DNA of 64,000 nucleotides from Ramlibacter lithotrophicus. GTDB taxonomy: Bacteria > Pseudomonadota > Gammaproteobacteria > Burkholderiales > Burkholderiaceae_C. Position numbers and translations under genes: made by a program. Below are positions 2,475 through 56,284 of the stretch, in pieces (the stretch's first letter is position 1; each line of letters opens with the position of its first letter). Location of the stretch: contig NZ_VTOX01000004.1 of assembly GCF_012184415.1 (NCBI RefSeq), positions 124,001 through 188,000 on the forward strand, read 5' to 3'. Below the pieces are notes generated by a model, which was not told where the DNA came from, did no database searches, and saw only the letters and a list, made by a program, of their open reading frames with translations.

Positions 2475-2533
2475 TTGTGGATAAGGGCTTGATAAATTAG
2501 AATCACCGGCTCCCAGAATGAAAACTATCCACA
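2475..2533 (+). promoter_or_regulatory. dnaA promoter with DnaA boxes
   Basis: A perfect DnaA box (TTATCCACA on the minus strand) lies at 2476-2484 and a one-mismatch box, CTATCCACA, at 2525-2533. A plausible sigma-70 promoter reads TTGTGG (2475-2480), a 17-nt spacer, then TAGAAT (2498-2503), so the -35 overlaps the perfect box. DnaA binding there would occlude RNA polymerase, the usual autoregulation of dnaA. The AT-rich tract 2490-2507 could unwind, but I see no run of DnaA-trios beside these boxes. The -35/-10 assignment is inference. Confidence 0.6.
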
Positions 2534-2548
2534 GAGGCGGCAGCCACA

Positions 2549-3961
2549 ATGAGTGAGGGGCAGCACAACAATCTGGCGGCGCAAGCACGCCAGACCGCCG
2601 GGGACAGCCTGTGGCAGGCGTGCCTGGAACAGCTGGCACAGGAACTCCCCGAGCAGCAGTACAACACCTGGATCAAGCCCCTCGTGGCCCAGGTGTCCGA
2701 CGACCTCTCCAAGGTCACGATCTTCGTCGCCAACCGGTTCAAGCTGGACTGGGTGCGGGCCCAGTATTCGGGCCGCATCGGCGCGCTCCTGGAAAAGCTC
2801 TACGGTCAGCCGGTCCACCTTGAGTTAGCGCTCGCTCCGCGCGATCCCGTTGCCAGGACTTACGCTACGCCGGCCGCGGTGGACGTCATGCGGGCGCCGG
2901 AGCCGCCCGAGCTGAGCGAGGACCCGGGGGCCGCGGCCTTCAAGAACCGCCTGAACACGGCCCTGACCTTCGACACCCTGGTGGAGGGCTCGGCCAACCG
3001 GATGGCGCGGGCCGCGGCCATGCACGTGTCGGGCACGCCGGGGCACCTGTACAACCCGCTGTTCATCTATGGCGGGGTCGGGCTGGGCAAGACCCACCTG
3101 GTCCACGCGGTGGGCAACAAGCTGCTGGCCGACAAGCCGGGCAGCAAAGTTCTCTACATCCATGCCGAGCAGTTCGTGTCCGATGTGGTCAAGGCCTACC
3201 AGCGCAAGACCTTCGACGAGTTCAAGGAGCGCTACCACTCGCTGGACCTGCTGCTGATCGACGACGTCCAGTTCTTCGCCAACAAGGACCGCACCCAGGA
3301 GGAGTTCTTCAACGCCTTCGAGGCCCTGCTGGCCAAGAAGAGCCACATCGTGATGACCAGCGACACCTACCCCAAGGGGCTGGCGGACATCCACGAGCGG
3401 CTGATCTCGCGCTTCGATTCCGGCCTGACGGTGGCCATCGAGCCGCCCGAGCTGGAAATGCGGGTGGCGATCCTGATCAACAAGGCGCGGGCCGAAAGCG
3501 CCGAGATGCCCGAGGAAGTGGCCTTCTTCGTGGCCAAGAACGTCCGCTCGAACGTGCGCGAGCTCGAAGGCGCGCTGCGCAAGATCCTGGCCTATTCGCG
3601 CTTCAACCAGAAGGAGATCTCGATCCAGCTGGCGCGCGAGGCATTGCGCGACCTGCTGTCGATCCAGAACCGGCAGATCTCGGTGGAGAACATCCAGAAG
3701 ACGGTGGCCGACTACTACAAGATCAAGGTCGCCGACATGTACAGCAAGAAGCGCCCGGCCTCGATCGCCCGGCCGCGCCAGATCGCGATGTACCTGGCCA
3801 AGGAGCTGACCCAGAAAAGCCTGCCCGAGATCGGCGAGCTGTTCGGCGGCCGCGACCACACGACGGTGCTGCACGCCGTGCGCAAGATCGGCGGCGAGCG
3901 CCAGCAGATGACCGAGCTGAACCAGCAGCTGCACGTGCTGGAGCAGACGCTGAAGGGGTGA
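2549..3961 (+). CDS. dnaA: Chromosomal replication initiator DnaA
   Basis: AAA+ initiator that binds DnaA boxes and opens oriC. It has 470 residues. Domain I (about 1-85) carries [21 protein letters not shown], followed by a variable linker with many Pro and Ala. Domain III has Walker [10 protein letters not shown] and Walker [11 protein letters not shown]. Domain IV ends with the DNA-recognition signature [14 protein letters not shown]. The ATG at 2549 lies just after DnaA box 2525-2533 and gives the canonical N-terminus. dnaN follows after a 136-bp gap that itself holds a DnaA-box-like site. Expression is probably autoregulated through the upstream boxes. Confidence 0.98.
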
Positions 3962-3994
3962 GGGCAGGCGCCGCCGCGGGCCCGTTCCGCCGCG

Positions 3995-4037
3995 GCAAGT
4001 GCCTGATGAAAAAGGGGAAAATGGCGGTTGTCCACAG
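3995..4037 (+). repeat. dnaA-dnaN intergenic segment, copy A of an origin-like duplication
   Basis: This 43-nt segment begins GCAAGTGCCTGATG, continues through an A/G-rich run and ends in the DnaA-box-like TTGTCCACAG (box at 4028-4036, one mismatch to the consensus). About 34 of 43 positions match 32461-32502, with one gap, and similarity continues weakly downstream (AGTTTGAA and AAGAAAGAAG here, AATTTGAA and AAGAAGAAG there). Unlike the distant copy, it has no CTA-type DnaA-trio after the box. It probably has a DnaA-binding or dnaN-regulatory role. Confidence 0.6.
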
Positions 4038-4097
4038 TGGGCGCGGCCTGGCCCGGCGAATGCCAGTTTGAACCAAGAAAGAAGCAAAGAGGTTGAC

Positions 4098-8007
<3,910 letters not shown>

Positions 8008-29830: not shown

Positions 29831-30106
29831 TCAAGCGGGCGCTGACTTCTGCTCCGGAAGCTCGATTTTGACCTCCAGCACCTCCAGGTTGTCCCGGCGT
29901 TCCAGGTGCACCTTGAGGTCCTGCTGGTCGATCTTGATGTACTTGGAGATCACCGCCACCAGTTCGCGCTGCAGCGCCGGCAGGTAGTCGGGCTGGCCGG
30001 CGTTGCGGCCGCTGCGCTCGTGCGCCAGGATGATCTGCAGCCGCTCCTTGGCGACGCTGGCCGTCTTCTTCTTCTCGCCGAGCAGGAAGGACAGGAAGGA
30101 GGCCAT
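29831..30106 (-). CDS. minE: Cell division topological specificity factor MinE
   Basis: 91 residues, family-typical. The N-terminal membrane/MinD-binding region reads [20 protein letters not shown] and [17 protein letters not shown]; the topological domain ends with [13 protein letters not shown]. MinE displaces MinC and stimulates MinD ATPase, producing pole-to-pole oscillation. It is the last gene of minC-minD-minE, 3 bp after minD. Confidence 0.96.
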
Positions 30107-30109
30107 GGG

Positions 30110-30925
30110 TCACTTGCTCCCGAACAGGCGCTTGAGGAAACCGGCCTTCTGGGGATCGATGAAGCGCAGCGGCCGGTCCTGGCCCAGGAAGCGATCCACC
30201 ACGTCCCGGTAGGCCTCCGAGACGTCGGTGCCCTTCAGGTGGACGGCGGGCGTGCCCTGGTTCGAGGCCTGCAGCACGGCGTCGCTTTCGGGGATGACGC
30301 CGATCAGCTCGATGCGCAGGATGTCCTTGATGTCTTCCAGCGACAGCATCTGGCCCTGGTCGACGCGGTTCGGGTTGTAACGGGTGATCAGGAGGTGTTC
30401 CTTGACCGGCTCCTTGCCCTCGATCGCCCGCTTGGTCTTGCTGGCCAGCATGCCCAGGATGCGGTCGGAGTCGCGCACCGACGAGACCTCCGGGTTGGTC
30501 ACGACCAGCGCCTCATCGGCGAAGTGCATCGCCAGCAGCGCGCCGGTCTCGATGCCGGCCGGCGAGTCGCAGACGATGTACTCGAAGCCCATGCCGGCCA
30601 GGTCGTTCAGCACCCGCTCGACGCCTTCCCTGGAGAGGGCTTCCTTGTCGCGGGTCTGCGAGGCCGCCAGCACGAACAGGTTGTCGCACTGCTTGTCCTT
30701 GATCAGCGCCTGGTGCAGGTTGGCCTCGCCGTGGATCACGTTGATCAGGTCGTAGACCACGCGCCGCTCGCAGCCCATGATCAGGTCCAGGTTGCGCAGG
30801 CCGACGTCGAAGTCGATCACGGCGGTCTTGTGGCCGGCCAGCGCGAGGCCGGAGGCGAAGCTGGCGCTGGTGGTGGTCTTGCCGACCCCGCCCTTGCCGG
30901 AAGTCACGACGATGATTCTTGCCAT
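30110..30925 (-). CDS. minD: Septum site-determining ATPase MinD
   Basis: 271 residues. It has the deviant Walker A in SGKGGVGKTTTSA, switch motifs (VIDFDVGLRNLD, CDSPAGIE) and a C-terminal amphipathic membrane-targeting helix (GFLKRLFGSK). It recruits MinC to the membrane and is regulated by MinE. Unusually, the gap to minC is 115 bp and carries two palindromic repeats. Confidence 0.97.
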   Translation of the reverse strand: MARIIVVTSGKGGVGKTTTSASFASGLALAGHKTAVIDFDVGLRNLDLIMGCERRVVYDLINVIHGEANLHQALIKDKQCDNLFVLAASQTRDKEALSREGVERVLNDLAGMGFEYIVCDSPAGIETGALLAMHFADEALVVTNPEVSSVRDSDRILGMLASKTKRAIEGKEPVKEHLLITRYNPNRVDQGQMLSLEDIKDILRIELIGVIPESDAVLQASNQGTPAVHLKGTDVSEAYRDVVDRFLGQDRPLRFIDPQKAGFLKRLFGSK

Positions 30926-30944
30926 GGGTTCTCGGTTCCTTGTT

Positions 30945-31023
30945 GCTCCCTCTCCCCGTGGGAGAGGGCCGGAGTGAGGGGTTTCGCCTCCCTCTCCCCC
31001 CGGGAGAGGGTTGGGGTGAGGGC
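30945..31023. repeat. Two tandem palindromic repeats between minC and minD
   Basis: Two copies of CCCTCTCCC...GGGAGAGGG followed by a (C/T)(C/T)GG(A/G)GTGAGGG tail lie head-to-tail (about 30946-30980 and 30990-31022). Each forms a GC-rich hairpin. A related half-copy (CTCTTCCGCAAGCGGGAGAGGG) is at 23668-23692. They look like a dispersed REP-type intergenic element. Here they interrupt an operon and could modulate minD/minE expression relative to minC. Confidence 0.75.
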
Positions 31024-31040
31024 GGCGCGCGCGAGCGCGT

Positions 31041-31784
31041 TCATGCCAGCGGGTCCATCACCAGCTTGCCTTCGACGCCGCCGACCAGCCGCACCTGGGT
31101 CGGCCTGGACAGCACCTCGGGCGGCAGCGGCACTTCGCTGGTGCGGTAGACGCCGGCGATCGAGATCAGCTCCGGCTCGAGGCACAGCGAGATGATCCGC
31201 GCCTCGGTGTTGCCGCGGGCGCCGGCGATGGCCTTGCCGCGCAGCGGTGCGTAGACGTGGATGTTGCCGTCGGCGATGACTTCGGCGCCGGGATTGACCA
31301 TGCTGAAGACGATCAGGTCGCGGCCGCGCGCATAGACCTGCTGGCCCGAACGCAGCGGCTTGTCGACGACGAGCGCACCGGCCGGCGGCGCTTCCGCCAC
31401 GGGCGCGGGAGCGGGCGCCTGCGCCGCCCGCGGCGGCGGCGGCTGGACGACGAGTTCGGGCGCCGCGGCGAGGCCCGCGGCGAGGGCCGCGCTCATCTGG
31501 CCGACGCTGCCGCCGCGTGCCGCCACCGGCAACACGCGATAGCGGTGCAGCAGGTCCAGCAGGGCCGGGAAATCGACGGCGGCTTCGCCCTGCGACTGCA
31601 GCGGCGTGAGATCCAGCACCAGCGGGTCGTGGTCGAAGAAATCGGGATGGTCGCCGAAGCGGGCGGACAGTTCGGTGGCGAGGGCGTCGAGGTCGGCCGT
31701 CTTCAGGAGGAGCGAGACCAGCGGCAGGGTGGCGCTCTTGATCTCGAACGTGGCAGGCGCGCGTCCTGCAAGGGCAACGGTCAT
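31041..31784 (-). CDS. minC: Septum site-determining protein MinC
   Basis: 247 residues. The N-terminal FtsZ-inhibitory domain (ATFEIKSATLPLVSLLLKTA) is followed by a Pro/Ala-rich linker (about 105-145). The C-terminal beta-helix binds MinD (GQQVYARGRDLIVFSMVNPG, ADGNIHVYAPLRGKAIAGAR, RTSEVPLPPEVLSRP). It prevents FtsZ assembly away from midcell. It is the first gene of the leftward min cluster. Confidence 0.95.
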   Translation of the reverse strand: MTVALAGRAPATFEIKSATLPLVSLLLKTADLDALATELSARFGDHPDFFDHDPLVLDLTPLQSQGEAAVDFPALLDLLHRYRVLPVAARGGSVGQMSAALAAGLAAAPELVVQPPPPRAAQAPAPAPVAEAPPAGALVVDKPLRSGQQVYARGRDLIVFSMVNPGAEVIADGNIHVYAPLRGKAIAGARGNTEARIISLCLEPELISIAGVYRTSEVPLPPEVLSRPTQVRLVGGVEGKLVMDPLA

Positions 31785-31943: not shown

Positions 31944-32327
31944 ATGAAGATCCATCACCGCCCGTCGCACTGGGTCGCCGTGGCCCTGGTGCTCGCCGCG
32001 CTCATGCTCGCCCTGAACGAGGCACACGGCCAGGGCGCCGGCGCCGCCGCGGTCTTCGAGGGCCGGCCCGCCATGGCGGGCGCCCAGGCCGGCCTCGGCG
32101 CGCAGGCCGGGCCGCCGCAAGGCGGCGTGGGCGTGCAAGGCCCCGAAGCGGCGCAGCGCAACCTGAACCTGCGCCGCCCGAGCCGACTGGGGCAGTTGCC
32201 CCCGGTGCCGGGCAAGGCCGACGACGACGTGCTCGCCGCGCGCGCCGAGGCCCGCGCACCGGCCGATCGCAACGAACTCGCACCACCCGCCGACCGGCGC
32301 GCGACCGAGCCCGCCGCGACGAAGTGA
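31944..32327 (+). CDS. Small secreted Ala/Gly/Pro-rich protein
   Basis: 127 residues. The signal peptide WVAVALVLAALMLALNEAHG has likely cleavage after AHG or GQG. The mature part is low-complexity, rich in Ala, Gly, Pro and Arg, and ends with a charged tail. A GAGGA site precedes ATG 31944. The frame opens earlier at 31860, but the signal peptide fixes the start. The family is not recognised. It is the last gene before the origin-like region. Confidence 0.55.
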   Translation: MKIHHRPSHWVAVALVLAALMLALNEAHGQGAGAAAVFEGRPAMAGAQAGLGAQAGPPQGGVGVQGPEAAQRNLNLRRPSRLGQLPPVPGKADDDVLAARAEARAPADRNELAPPADRRATEPAATK

Positions 32328-32373
32328 CCGCCGCCTGAACAACCCTGGGGACAGTTCCCTGGTAACCCGGCCG

Positions 32374-32558
32374 TTATCCACAGGCGCGGGCGCCGCGGCA
32401 AGGTTGTCCCTGTTCCCGATACACCACGCGACCGCGGTGGCCCACAGCCGCAGCGGTGCCGCAAGTGCTTGATGCGAAAGGGTAAAAGCGCCTTGTCCAC
32501 AGCGCGGGCCGCCCTCTACTAGCTACTACTAATTTGAAATAGAGATAACAAGAAGAAG
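32374..32558 (+). other. Origin-like region: DnaA boxes, GC spacer, DnaA-trios, AT-rich tract (candidate oriC)
   Basis: A perfect DnaA box TTATCCACA lies at 32374-32382 and TTGTCCACA at 32493-32501; TGGCCCACA at 32438-32446 is weaker. After the second box comes a GC-rich 14-bp spacer, then CTACTAGCTACTACTAAT (32516-32533), whose complement read 3'-5' is a GAT series, the DnaA-trio pattern described for Bacillus subtilis. An A-rich tract (32531-32558) follows. This is the box-spacer-trio order of the basal unwinding system. The 42 nt at 32461-32502 are a diverged copy of the dnaA-dnaN intergenic segment. There is no ORF inside. Function as the origin is inference. Confidence 0.65.
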
Positions 32559-32599
32559 AGGGCGGCGAGCCCCGGAGGGCCGTTGCGGCCCGCGCGGCG

Positions 32600-33277
32600 T
32601 CAGTCGGCGCGGCGGTCGAACAGCTTGCTGGCCCGCGCCAGGTCGCCAGTGAACGCCGCGAACGCCGGCTCGCGATCCTCCGGTGCGCCGCGCAGCAGCG
32701 ACGACGGATGCACCGTGACCAGCACCTGGCGGCCGTCGGGTCGCGGCAGCCACTGGCCGCGGTTGGCCAGCACCGGCACCGCCCGTCCGAGCAGCGACCG
32801 CGCCGCCGTTGCGCCCAGTGCCACCAGTGCTTTCGGCCGCACCAGCGCGATCTCGTCCTCCAGCCAGTGCAGGCACGCGGCGGCCTCGCGCTGGGTCGGC
32901 GTCTTGTGGAGGCGGCGCTTGCCGCGCAGTTCGTACTTGAAATGCTTCACCGCGTTGGACACGAATACCTGCTCGCGCGGGATGCCGGCCTGTTCCAGCG
33001 CCTTCGCCAGCAGCCGCCCGGCGGGACCGACGAAGGGGTGGCCCTGCAGGTCCTCCTGGTCGCCGGGTTGTTCGCCCACCAGCATCAGCCTGGCCCTGGC
33101 CGGGCCTTCGCCGATCACCGACTGGGTGGCGAACTCGCCGATCGGGCATTCGCGGCAGCGCATCGTCGCCGCCCTGAGCTCCTCCAGCGAGGCGATCCCG
33201 TCCTGCGCCGGCGCCTGCAGCGGCTGCCCCGGGCGCACGGCGCGCACTGGGGAGGCGCTCCCGGCGGCGGGCTTCAT
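32600..33277 (-). CDS. UdgX-type uracil-DNA glycosylase
   Basis: 225 residues. Motif A is GEQPGDQED (68-76), then HPFVGPAGRLL, NAVKHFKYELRGKRRLHKTP and the C-terminal HPSSLLRG. The KRRLH loop (120-124) corresponds to the KRRIH loop of UdgX, whose His forms a covalent bond with uracil-bearing DNA; here it would be His124. Cys41, Cys44 and Cys135, with His112 in place of the third family-4 Cys, are probable Fe-S ligands (inference). Start ATG 33277 overlaps the upstream DUF4130 stop (ATGA). The origin-like region lies just downstream of its 3' end. Confidence 0.88.
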   Translation of the reverse strand: MKPAAGSASPVRAVRPGQPLQAPAQDGIASLEELRAATMRCRECPIGEFATQSVIGEGPARARLMLVGEQPGDQEDLQGHPFVGPAGRLLAKALEQAGIPREQVFVSNAVKHFKYELRGKRRLHKTPTQREAAACLHWLEDEIALVRPKALVALGATAARSLLGRAVPVLANRGQWLPRPDGRQVLVTVHPSSLLRGAPEDREPAFAAFTGDLARASKLFDRRAD

Positions 33278-33954
33278 GGCCCTTCCGGCTCCGGTTCCTG
33301 CCGGGGCTCGAAGACGCTGCGATGCAGCGCGAGCCACGCTTCGTCGCCGTCTTCAGGGGCCGGCGCGCGCGAGCGCGGCACGCCGAGGGCATAGTGCAGC
33401 TTGCGGCCGTCCCATTCGACGGAGCGCTCGGGCGTGAAGATCGCCCAGCGCGGCTGCGGATTGCGCTTGGCGAACCACGGTGCGGCGGTCTCGAGGATGT
33501 GGTGGGCCGGGGCGTACCACGCGAGTTGCAGCGGCGGTGCATCGCCCTCGGCCAAAAGCCGGAAGCGCACGAACGCCTTCATCTTGTGGATGTCGCGCCG
33601 CACCGACTGCGCCATCTGGTGCGCGTGCAGCATGTCCGGGTCCATCGGGTCGTTGCGCAGGCCGGGCTCGTGCACCAGCCGCCACAGCAGCCGGTACAGC
33701 AGCGCGAAGCGGTCCGGGTCGTGGTGCAGCACGACCACCTCGCACAGCCGCAGGAACGAAGCAGGGACGATGGCGGACGCGGCCCTGGCGATCTCGCGCG
33801 GCCGGTCGAGGCCGGGGTCGCTGAAGTGATCGCTGTTCTGCGCTTCGGCGGTATGCCAGCGGACGGCTTCGGGCGGCACCTGCTGGCGCAGCAGCAGCCG
33901 CGCCTCTTCGCGGAACCCGGCGAGGTCGGTTTCGCTGGCCAGCCGTGCTTCCAT
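33274..33954 (-). CDS. DUF4130 protein, UdgX partner
   Basis: 226 residues with the DUF4130 pattern: LRLCEVVVLHHDPDRFALLY, MAQSVRRDIHKMKAFVRFR, WYAPAHHILETAAPWFAKRN and IFTPERSVEWDG. In many bacteria this domain is fused to UdgX or encoded with a radical-SAM DNA-repair protein; here it is a separate gene whose stop overlaps the udgX start. A role in uracil-DNA handling is inferred from this linkage. No radical-SAM gene is seen nearby. Confidence 0.83.
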   Translation of the reverse strand: MEARLASETDLAGFREEARLLLRQQVPPEAVRWHTAEAQNSDHFSDPGLDRPREIARAASAIVPASFLRLCEVVVLHHDPDRFALLYRLLWRLVHEPGLRNDPMDPDMLHAHQMAQSVRRDIHKMKAFVRFRLLAEGDAPPLQLAWYAPAHHILETAAPWFAKRNPQPRWAIFTPERSVEWDGRKLHYALGVPRSRAPAPEDGDEAWLALHRSVFEPRQEPEPEGP

Positions 33955-52931: not shown

Positions 52932-53525
52932 TTCCTTGACGCGGTGTTGGTCCTGCAGCCGGCCGGCTGCCCACAGGACCTGGTCGAGCACGGCCTGCAC
53001 TGAATTCCGCGCCGCCTCGTTCACGAGCCCGCCTCCGGCGTCGAACCCATCGGGGGCGCGCGCCAGCGCGAAGGTCTTCGGCGCCACCCAGCACTGCAGG
53101 TTGAACAGCAGCGGCACCAGATGGCTCTGCGAGCGCAGGCCGCCCAGCGCGCCCGGGGACGCGCTCAGCACGCCGACCACCTTGCCGCGCGTGGACCGGA
53201 AGCCGTCGCTCCAGGCCGGGTCGCCCTTCACCGGGCTGGAAATCCAGTCCAGGGTGTTCTTCAGGAGCGCCGGGTAACTGGCGTTGTACTCGGGCGTGCA
53301 GATGATCCACGCCGGATGCGCGGCCGTGATCTCCTTGAGCCGCATCACGTCGCCCGGCGTGCCCTGCGCCTCGAGGTCGGCGTTGTACATGGGCACGTCG
53401 AAATCGCCCAGCTCCAGGTGGGTGACGTCGGCGCCCGCCGCGCGGGCCATCCCGGCGGTGACGGTCGCGAGCTTGCGGTTCCAGGAGCCCGTGCGGGTGC
53501 TGCCGGCAAAGACGAGAAGCTTCAT
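52926..53525 (-). CDS. NAD(P)H-dependent FMN reductase
   Basis: 199 residues of the flavodoxin-like fold: [54 protein letters not shown] and [16 protein letters not shown]. It reduces FMN or quinones using NAD(P)H. The stop TAG (52926-52928) overlaps the palindrome in front of the AAA ATPase. It is divergent from mnmG. Confidence 0.92.
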
Positions 53526-53661
53526 TGCCGGATTGCACCACAGCGCGGATGGACCGGCGCCCGCAGGTGCTTTGAGCGGCCGCGGGCGCAAGGGCAGGGC
53601 GGCCGGTAAAATTGGCGCCCCTCTCCAGCGCCGCTGCCCGCGTGTGGCCCGGCCCTTCCCC

Positions 53662-55614
<1,953 letters not shown>

Positions 55615-55636
55615 GGCGCGGGGGACGAGGCGGCCG

Positions 55637-56284
55637 ATGAGCAGGGCGGACCTGGAGCGCGGTCTCGAGGGCGGCCTTGCCGCGCTGGGGCTCGACCTCG
55701 CGGCCGGGCGGCGCGCGCAACTGCTCGACTACCTCGAGCTGATCCAGAAATGGAACCGGGTCTACAACCTCACGGCCGTGCGCGACCCGCGGGAGATGCT
55801 GACCCAGCATCTGCTCGACAGCCTGGCGGTGGTCGCGCCGCTGCGCCGGCATACGGGCGGCGCGCCGTGCTCGCTGCTGGACGTCGGCGCGGGCGCCGGC
55901 TTGCCCGGCGTCGTGATCGCCATCGCGTGTCCCGAGATCCGGGTCGACTGCGTCGACACGGTTGCCAAGAAGGCCGCCTTCCTGCAACAGGTCGCCGTCA
56001 CCCTGAAGCTGCCCAACCTGCGCGGCCTGCACGACCGGGTCGAACGGCTGGCCGGGCCGTACGACGTGATCGCTTCCCGGGCGTTCGCCTCGCTGGCCGA
56101 TTTCGTCGGATGGTCAGGCGCGGCGCTGGCCCCGCAGGGCGTGTGGATGGCAATGAAGGGGCGGCATCCCGAGGAAGAACTCGCCGCGCTGCCGCCCGAG
56201 GTGGCGATGTTTCACGTGGAACAGTTGCGCGTCCCCAACTTCGAGGGTGAACGCTGCCTCGTGTGGATGAGGCGCCGCAGTTAA
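55637..56284 (+). CDS. rsmG: 16S rRNA m7G527 methyltransferase RsmG (GidB)
   Basis: 215 residues. The SAM-binding motif is LLDVGAGAGLPGVVIAIACP, with VDCVDTVAKKAAFLQQVA and ASRAFASLADFV. It methylates G527 of 16S rRNA. It follows mnmG by 22 bp in the conserved gidA-gidB order. A parS variant lies near its 3' end. Confidence 0.96.
   Translation: MSRADLERGLEGGLAALGLDLAAGRRAQLLDYLELIQKWNRVYNLTAVRDPREMLTQHLLDSLAVVAPLRRHTGGAPCSLLDVGAGAGLPGVVIAIACPEIRVDCVDTVAKKAAFLQQVAVTLKLPNLRGLHDRVERLAGPYDVIASRAFASLADFVGWSGAALAPQGVWMAMKGRHPEEELAALPPEVAMFHVEQLRVPNFEGERCLVWMRRRS
56208..56223. promoter_or_regulatory. parS site 2 (one mismatch) inside rsmG
   Basis: TGTTTCACGTGGAACA differs from the consensus at one base. 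It is in the codons for MFHVEQ of rsmG, 1.1 kb from parS site 1. Confidence 0.85.

Follow-up and report, generated by a model that had tools for sequence, protein, structure and literature searches.

The window is a 64,000-nt stretch of a Ramlibacter genome (G000:C4:124001-188000; the genome comprises 5.26 Mb in 24 contigs). It carries dnaA (2549-3961, + strand; Pfam Bac_DnaA, 1.1e-60), dnaN (4098-5204, +; Pfam) and gyrB (5302-8007, +; Pfam). Further along, a 272-bp gap (32328-32599) holds the element described here. Directly left of this element lie minE, minD and minC (29846-31784; minC itself at 31041-31784, -, Pfam MinC_C and MinC_N), and its right neighbor is a gene for a udgX-like uracil-DNA glycosylase (32600-33337, -; Pfam UDG, 5.2e-36, tested over 32603-33277). 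Open reading frames that cover the gap (177-181 aa on the minus strand, and 337 aa from 32529) were rejected as genes, being overlapping frames of a kind common at 70% GC.

The whole conserved unit spans 32338-32560 (+) and is colinear with the element that relatives carry in the dnaA-dnaN gap. It was matched over 32397-32541 (E 1.1e-25) by R1, a model of the element made from sequence only. The window copy opens with a 5' conserved block (AACAACCCTGGGGACAGTTCC, 32338-32358, +), and a similar block (AACAACCCTGTGGAgcgTTCC) opens the element of relatives. This is followed by a perfect, distal DnaA box (TTATCCACA, 32374-32382, +; relatives have a box at the matching place), a conserved, weakly box-like GTTGTCCC stretch (32403-32410, +; alignment A1), a conserved GCAAGTGCTTGATG..AAAGGGTAAAA block that is shared with the dnaN upstream region (32461-32487, +), and a second, trio-side DnaA box identified by a box search of the window (TTGTCCACA, 32493-32501, +). 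A GC-rich spacer of 14 nt with 7% A+T (GCGCGGGCCGCCCT, 32502-32515, +) separates this box from the DnaA-trios 3'-GAT-GAT-C-GAT-GAT-GAT-5' on the minus strand (32516-32531; CTACTAGCTACTACTA on the plus strand), a block also conserved in A1. Adjoining the trios is an A-rich tract (32533-32560, +), the presumed unwinding region, whose 71% A+T stands against about 70% GC in the window as a whole; no 45-mer of the window is richer in A+T than the one from 32515, which shares the top value. When the sequence was re-read, the perfect box, the second box, the spacer, the trios and the A-rich tract were all found where an earlier, sequence-only reading of the window had placed them. The 5' extension to about 32338 goes beyond that reading.

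Six box sites with ≤ 1 mismatch to TTATCCACA were found in the window versus 1.83 expected from shuffling, so single boxes do arise by chance. That boxes and CTA repeats came together by chance between two genes has next to no probability as an account of the element, given that five CTA trios follow the box at 32493 within 16 nt, that none follows any of the other five window boxes, and that 60 resamplings of the window under a first-order Markov model produced not one box with even three CTA in 16 nt. Chance is ruled out by conservation, the element being present in 55 of 60 Ramlibacter genomes and in 131 of 141 genera across the family.

Origins with a basal unwinding system (BUS) are widespread, according to the accessible text of PMC8287927, which describes a rule by which three or more trios lie no further than 16 bp from a box, a spacer length that peaks at 10-13 bp, and a requirement of boxes and trios for unwinding by six further DnaA homologues. 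In the window, the box at 32493-32501 is followed after 14 nt, within that 16-bp limit, by five GAT trios, as in the criterion applied to Bacillus (PMC8287927). The arrangement resembles the BUS of the Bacillus subtilis oriC (DnaA-boxes 6/7, GC-rich spacer and DnaA-trios), in which a box and a short spacer are followed by 3'-GAT-5' trios that lead away from the box, as set out in the same text (PMC8287927). Unlike the tandem box pair of B. subtilis, Ramlibacter has one good proximal box, and it also differs in that its element lies far from dnaA, with a dnaA operon that would be copied head-on.

Placement of the element within Ramlibacter

A first search with the 311-bp region as a DNA query gave matches in 29 of 36 congeners (32 of 61 over all genomes, own included), many of them in the dnaA-dnaN gap and others elsewhere. 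The 29 aligned copies (A1) have in common the boxes, the GCAAGTGCTTGATG..AAAA block and the trios, and the dnaA-dnaN copies carry the full unit, opening with AACAACCCTGTGGA..TTCCGGCACAAC. With R1, a copy was recovered from 55 of 60 Ramlibacter genomes and from all 45 of good quality; the five genomes without an R1 match are all outside the good-quality set. The sequence-only reading had named a lack of conservation in relatives among the findings that would refute it, and boxes and trios are kept there as a unit with differing flanks.

The copy lies in the dnaA-dnaN gap in 23 of these 55 genomes (that of G032 is cut by a contig end, and G081 has a second copy 28.5 kb away), and in the other 32, the window's included, it is displaced only. 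Half of the displaced copies (16) are elsewhere on the dnaA contig, 12 are on a contig other than that of dnaA, and four are in genomes where dnaA was not found and have other genes as neighbors. All 16 same-contig displaced copies are downstream of dnaA, at distances from 5.5 kb (G018) to 79 kb (G011), with 28.4 kb in the window; for G073, the contig was treated as circular and the position counted over its end. Judged from coordinates, 14 of these 16 copies run the same way as dnaA, and those of G009 and G077 are inverted.

A box with ≤ 1 mismatch followed by at least three CTA is kept in 49 of the 63 elements examined. Among the other 14, 12 have at least three CTA after a 2-mismatch box, G016 has two CTA, and the dnaA-side copy of G214, a genome of another genus, has a box with three mismatches and two CTA.

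The element stays while its neighbors vary. Outside the 23 genomes with dnaA and dnaN as flanks, it was found beside minC/udgX (shared by the window and G077), SDR/VOC genes (several genomes of one clade), queC (G064, G007, and G035), aldolase and mnmG (G009 and G025), AraC/TIM44 genes (G018), and others. The min-gene setting recurs beside the element in Rhodoferax, Polaromonas and contigs of other Burkholderiales, Comamonadaceae among them.

The dnaA-dnaN region and its remnants

Two DnaA boxes lie upstream of dnaA in the window (2476-2484, -, and 2525-2533, +; box search). A pair at about -75 and -25 of dnaA, with fixed spacing whatever the place of the element, is present in 29 of the 30 Ramlibacter genomes examined (window included), and the truncated 30th has one box. 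The earlier statement that no trios follow the boxes beside dnaA was borne out by the window, with no CTA there, and by all 30 genomes. This pair probably serves dnaA autoregulation, a role that was also considered for the element and rejected, as it fits only the pair upstream of dnaA.

These boxes bear on the view that the working origin is beside dnaA (rpmH-dnaA or dnaA-dnaN) and that the element at 32.4 kb binds or titrates DnaA in the manner of datA and carries trios by chance. We consider this unlikely. In its favor are the two upstream boxes (2476 and 2525), the A+T-rich stretch between them at 2489, and a box still present at 4028 beside dnaN, but trios are lacking at these places, and the upstream pair is present wherever the element is and therefore does not track it. 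Trios, a spacer and an A-rich tract are not required of a titration site, which would also not take the place of the dnaA-dnaN copy; a datA-like site is a cluster of boxes without an unwinding module. The element, by contrast, has a full unwinding module, and only two sites within two mismatches of the box occur across 32320-32620.

Between dnaA and dnaN, the window retains a degenerate homologue of the element that the sequence-only reading did not include (3995-4037, +; R1 match 3983-4049, E 2.6e-10). This remnant of about 43 bp upstream of dnaN matches R1 model positions 57-124 and keeps a box (TTGTCCACA, 4028-4036) and the GCAAGTGCCTGATG..AAAA block, without trios. The block may have been retained as part of the dnaN promoter.

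The dnaA-dnaN gaps of displaced genomes that were read (stop codon counted) measure 39 bp (G064) and 48 bp (G008) to 270 bp (G023), and no trios were found in them; element-bearing gaps measure 237-271 bp, with 414 bp in G031. A dnaA-side remnant was recognized by R1 in 6 of the 32 displaced genomes (G000, G007, G009, G018, G025, and G035). The four read besides that of the window differ in decay: the box is kept in G018 (no CTA) and in G007 (two CTA), and it is broken in G009 and G025, with two or one CTA. This graded decay speaks for the dnaA-dnaN place having come first.

A further alternative is that both sites fire, either as two origins or with the remnant at 3995-4037 assisting initiation as part of a bipartite origin. 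The box and block retained in the remnant would suit this, as would the copies of G081, which have boxes and trios at both places. We nevertheless regard it as very improbable for the window, where the remnant is without trios and the retained block is explicable by the dnaN promoter; in some displaced genomes, such as G064 and G008 above, almost nothing is left of the gap, and the dnaA-side copy of G214 is decayed.

Local skew, parS-like sites and the proposed origin

GC skew was compared over 160-240 kb joined around the site in eight displaced and four non-displaced Ramlibacter genomes, the latter as controls. Pooled over the displaced genomes, mean skew was -0.0054 from gyrB to the element (interval -0.0111 to 0.0004; 302 one-kb blocks) and +0.0241 in the 40 kb beyond the element (0.0197 to 0.0287; 320 blocks). 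The difference was significant in seven of the eight (p 0.0002-0.0038), including the window's genome (G000, p = 0.0038), and no shift was seen in G009 (p 0.83), whose element is inverted. In the controls, skew from +6 to +30 kb of dnaA was +0.015 to +0.047, the lowest value being that of G081 with an interval that includes zero.

A one-step model was likelier at the element than at dnaA in all eight displaced genomes (log-likelihood gain 0.24-5.97), and the free optimum within 60 kb fell ≤ 10 kb from the element in six, the exceptions being G009 and G016; the best single skew step in G016 is at +75 kb. Counting against the element, mean skew in the 40 kb upstream of dnaA was also positive in all 12 genomes. 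When a single change point was fitted freely over the whole stretch, it fell on the upstream side of dnaA in three displaced genomes (G000, by 29 kb; G009; G016) and, by 20-29 kb, in each of the four controls. Since this happens even in controls, the free fit is biased, pulled by local gene content, and zones were compared instead. The GC-skew transition at the element is accordingly a weak one that appears in the local test and differs from the free change point of G000. The sequence-only reading had held that a skew minimum at dnaA would speak against the candidate; the local shift lies at the element and not at dnaA in the seven genomes above, which also weighs against a working origin beside dnaA.

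With regard to coding strand, the outcome was mixed: more co-directional genes were found beyond the element in G011, G016, G028, G030, and G070, and slightly so in G009. Coding strand does not favor the element in G014 or in G000, where the co-directional fraction is 0.75 from gyrB to the element and 0.48 beyond.

Also beyond the earlier reading, gidB and two parS-like sites were found at 55-56 kb. Compared with the parS consensus, the site at 55080-55095 is perfect and that at 56208-56223 has one mismatch; they lie around the start and end of gidB (55637-56284). Together with an mnmG (gidA)-like match, gidB occupies 53335-56284, about 50 kb from dnaA, and the element sits between two classical origin landmarks, dnaA and this mnmG/gidB-parS region. 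Across the eight displaced genomes, parS-like sites lie 2-37 kb beyond the element and 43-118 kb from dnaA; in the four controls they lie 23-52 kb beyond the element.

The proposal of a candidate oriC away from dnaA was largely right, as the conserved unit and the local skew shift favor the element. With its anatomy, conservation and displacement, the remnant and the skew shift observed as described, the element at about 32338-32560 is very probably the chromosomal oriC, a DnaA-trio (BUS) origin that lies between minC and udgX, 28 kb downstream of dnaA, and not between dnaA and dnaN. DnaA would bind the boxes at 32374 and 32493, and the oligomer would be guided from the proximal box over the 14-nt GC-rich spacer onto the bottom-strand trios, after which the A-rich tract would melt and the helicase would be loaded. 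At the dnaA-dnaN site, only the remnant upstream of dnaN is left. Because relatives carry the same sequence of about 200 bases next to dnaA, the start site would have changed places within one genus.

Forks leaving both ways would copy dnaA-dnaN-gyrB head-on. This orientation had been pointed out earlier as counter-evidence; it would follow from displacement of the element. The same would hold in the 15 other same-contig displaced Ramlibacter, in all of which the element is downstream of dnaA.

Copy number, relocation and the wider family

The closed Ramlibacter genome G081 carries two copies with boxes and trios, one between dnaA and dnaN and the other 28.5 kb downstream (L248:515-655 (+); L086), and is a natural candidate for a two-origin chromosome. 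In G214, a decayed copy beside dnaA and a full-trio copy 24.6 kb away were found (C3:280115-280256 and 304608-304744; L300 and L319). The two copies are 73% identical in G081 and 70% identical in G214, and in both genomes each copy groups with different relatives. Tandem element pairs, 331-482 bp start to start and 77-81% identical, are present in G002 (L025/L075), G025 (L008/L088), and G070 (L074/L200).

On a dnaA+dnaN tree of 47 Ramlibacter with a single, very distant outgroup, the place of the element requires at least five changes, three of them forced by well-supported branches, and 16 displaced species form one clade (100/100). In the element tree (63 elements, 242 columns, many weak branches), dnaA-side copies are set apart from displaced ones more strongly than in 500 shuffles, and this holds between genera as well. 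Exceptions are the displaced copies of G207 and G018, which fall beside the dnaA-side copies of G085 and G137, respectively, and the dnaA-side copies of G031 and G027, which are near G000 and G077. An old duplication with differential loss would fit the element tree at least as well as repeated jumps. One plausible though tentative picture is that the oriC of this family is a small movable unit that is copied to new places, mostly in the dnaA-to-par region, passes through a two-copy phase, decays on the dnaA side and has relocated repeatedly, so that some living species may operate two copies of oriC on a single chromosome.

As a rule, oriC is regarded as a fixed point of the chromosome and is often called by nearness to dnaA. 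In Escherichia coli it lies by mnmG/gidA, about 44 kb from dnaA. Ramlibacter is similar in having its proposed oriC tens of kb from dnaA, whereas the box array and 13-mers of E. coli differ from the Ramlibacter element, and we know of no movement of an E. coli-type oriC inside a genus. Cupriavidus metallidurans and Burkholderia cenocepacia belong to the same order as Ramlibacter. On chromosome 1 of C. metallidurans CH34, a GC-skew switch lies some 90 kb away from dnaA-dnaN-gyrB and adjoins a 213-nt stretch that contains three perfect DnaA boxes (PMC2864759). That switch lies upstream in the one genome for which it was noted, whereas the Ramlibacter element is downstream, and the accessible part of that account describes no trios, element family or evolutionary movement (PMC2864759). 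For B. cenocepacia J2315 oriC1, the available portion of the paper reports dispersed origin features, with the exact origin place called unclear by its authors, and describes no BUS-type element (PMC4948915).

A literature search in which few subscription papers were covered gave, among the matches listed, no Ramlibacter oriC and no oriC moving within Comamonadaceae. An oriC displaced from dnaA was already known; no published account was found of an origin moving inside a genus, with decayed remnants and a genome that has both copies. One genus having both placements, decayed dnaA-dnaN remnants and a two-copy species offers a natural series on how bacterial origins move, and it bears on the cost of head-on dnaA-dnaN-gyrB and on whether two copies can fire together. 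The finding would exceed a single displaced oriC and describe a genus and a family in which oriC changes place.

Within the GTDB family, R1 was detected in 272 of 299 genomes (251 of 267 good ones; 131 of 141 genera). dnaA was located for 80 family genomes taken from the best-scoring matches listed and good assemblies. The copy lies ≤ 700 bp from dnaA in 28 of these (18 genera), elsewhere on the same contig in 41 (24 genera; 7.6 to 259 kb, median 55 kb, eight upstream), and on another contig in 11; the 259-kb distance is that of G155, a genome of another genus. Displaced copies were inverted in 40 of 53. No genus with both placements was seen among those 80 from the matches listed; Ramlibacter, analyzed apart, has both.

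R1 provides a direct way to look for oriC in the family. It is weaker in other Burkholderiales, where the exact place is uncertain, as the accessible parts of two accounts indicate (PMC4948915, PMC2864759). Order-wide, 25 of 150 genomes matched, four of them in the family. Eight loci were fetched from other families: three (G421, G057, and G457; two families) have a match between dnaA and dnaN, and no dnaA lies within 1.5 kb of the match in the other five. The weak match on a Polynucleobacter contig also falls between dnaA and dnaN. The decayed remnants and the dnaA-dnaN matches of other families suggest, rather than prove, that the dnaA-dnaN place is ancestral.

Massilia and Pseudoduganella loci (L114, L119, L121, and L138; Oxalobacteraceae) have at least two weak R1 matches about 3-4 kb apart; these pairs, on 8-kb loci without dnaA, are perhaps split origins. 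One complete chromosome, that of Desulfopila IMCC35008, has three widely separated occurrences of the box-plus-trio pattern (L134, L142, and L156), which is perhaps a repeat unrelated to an origin.
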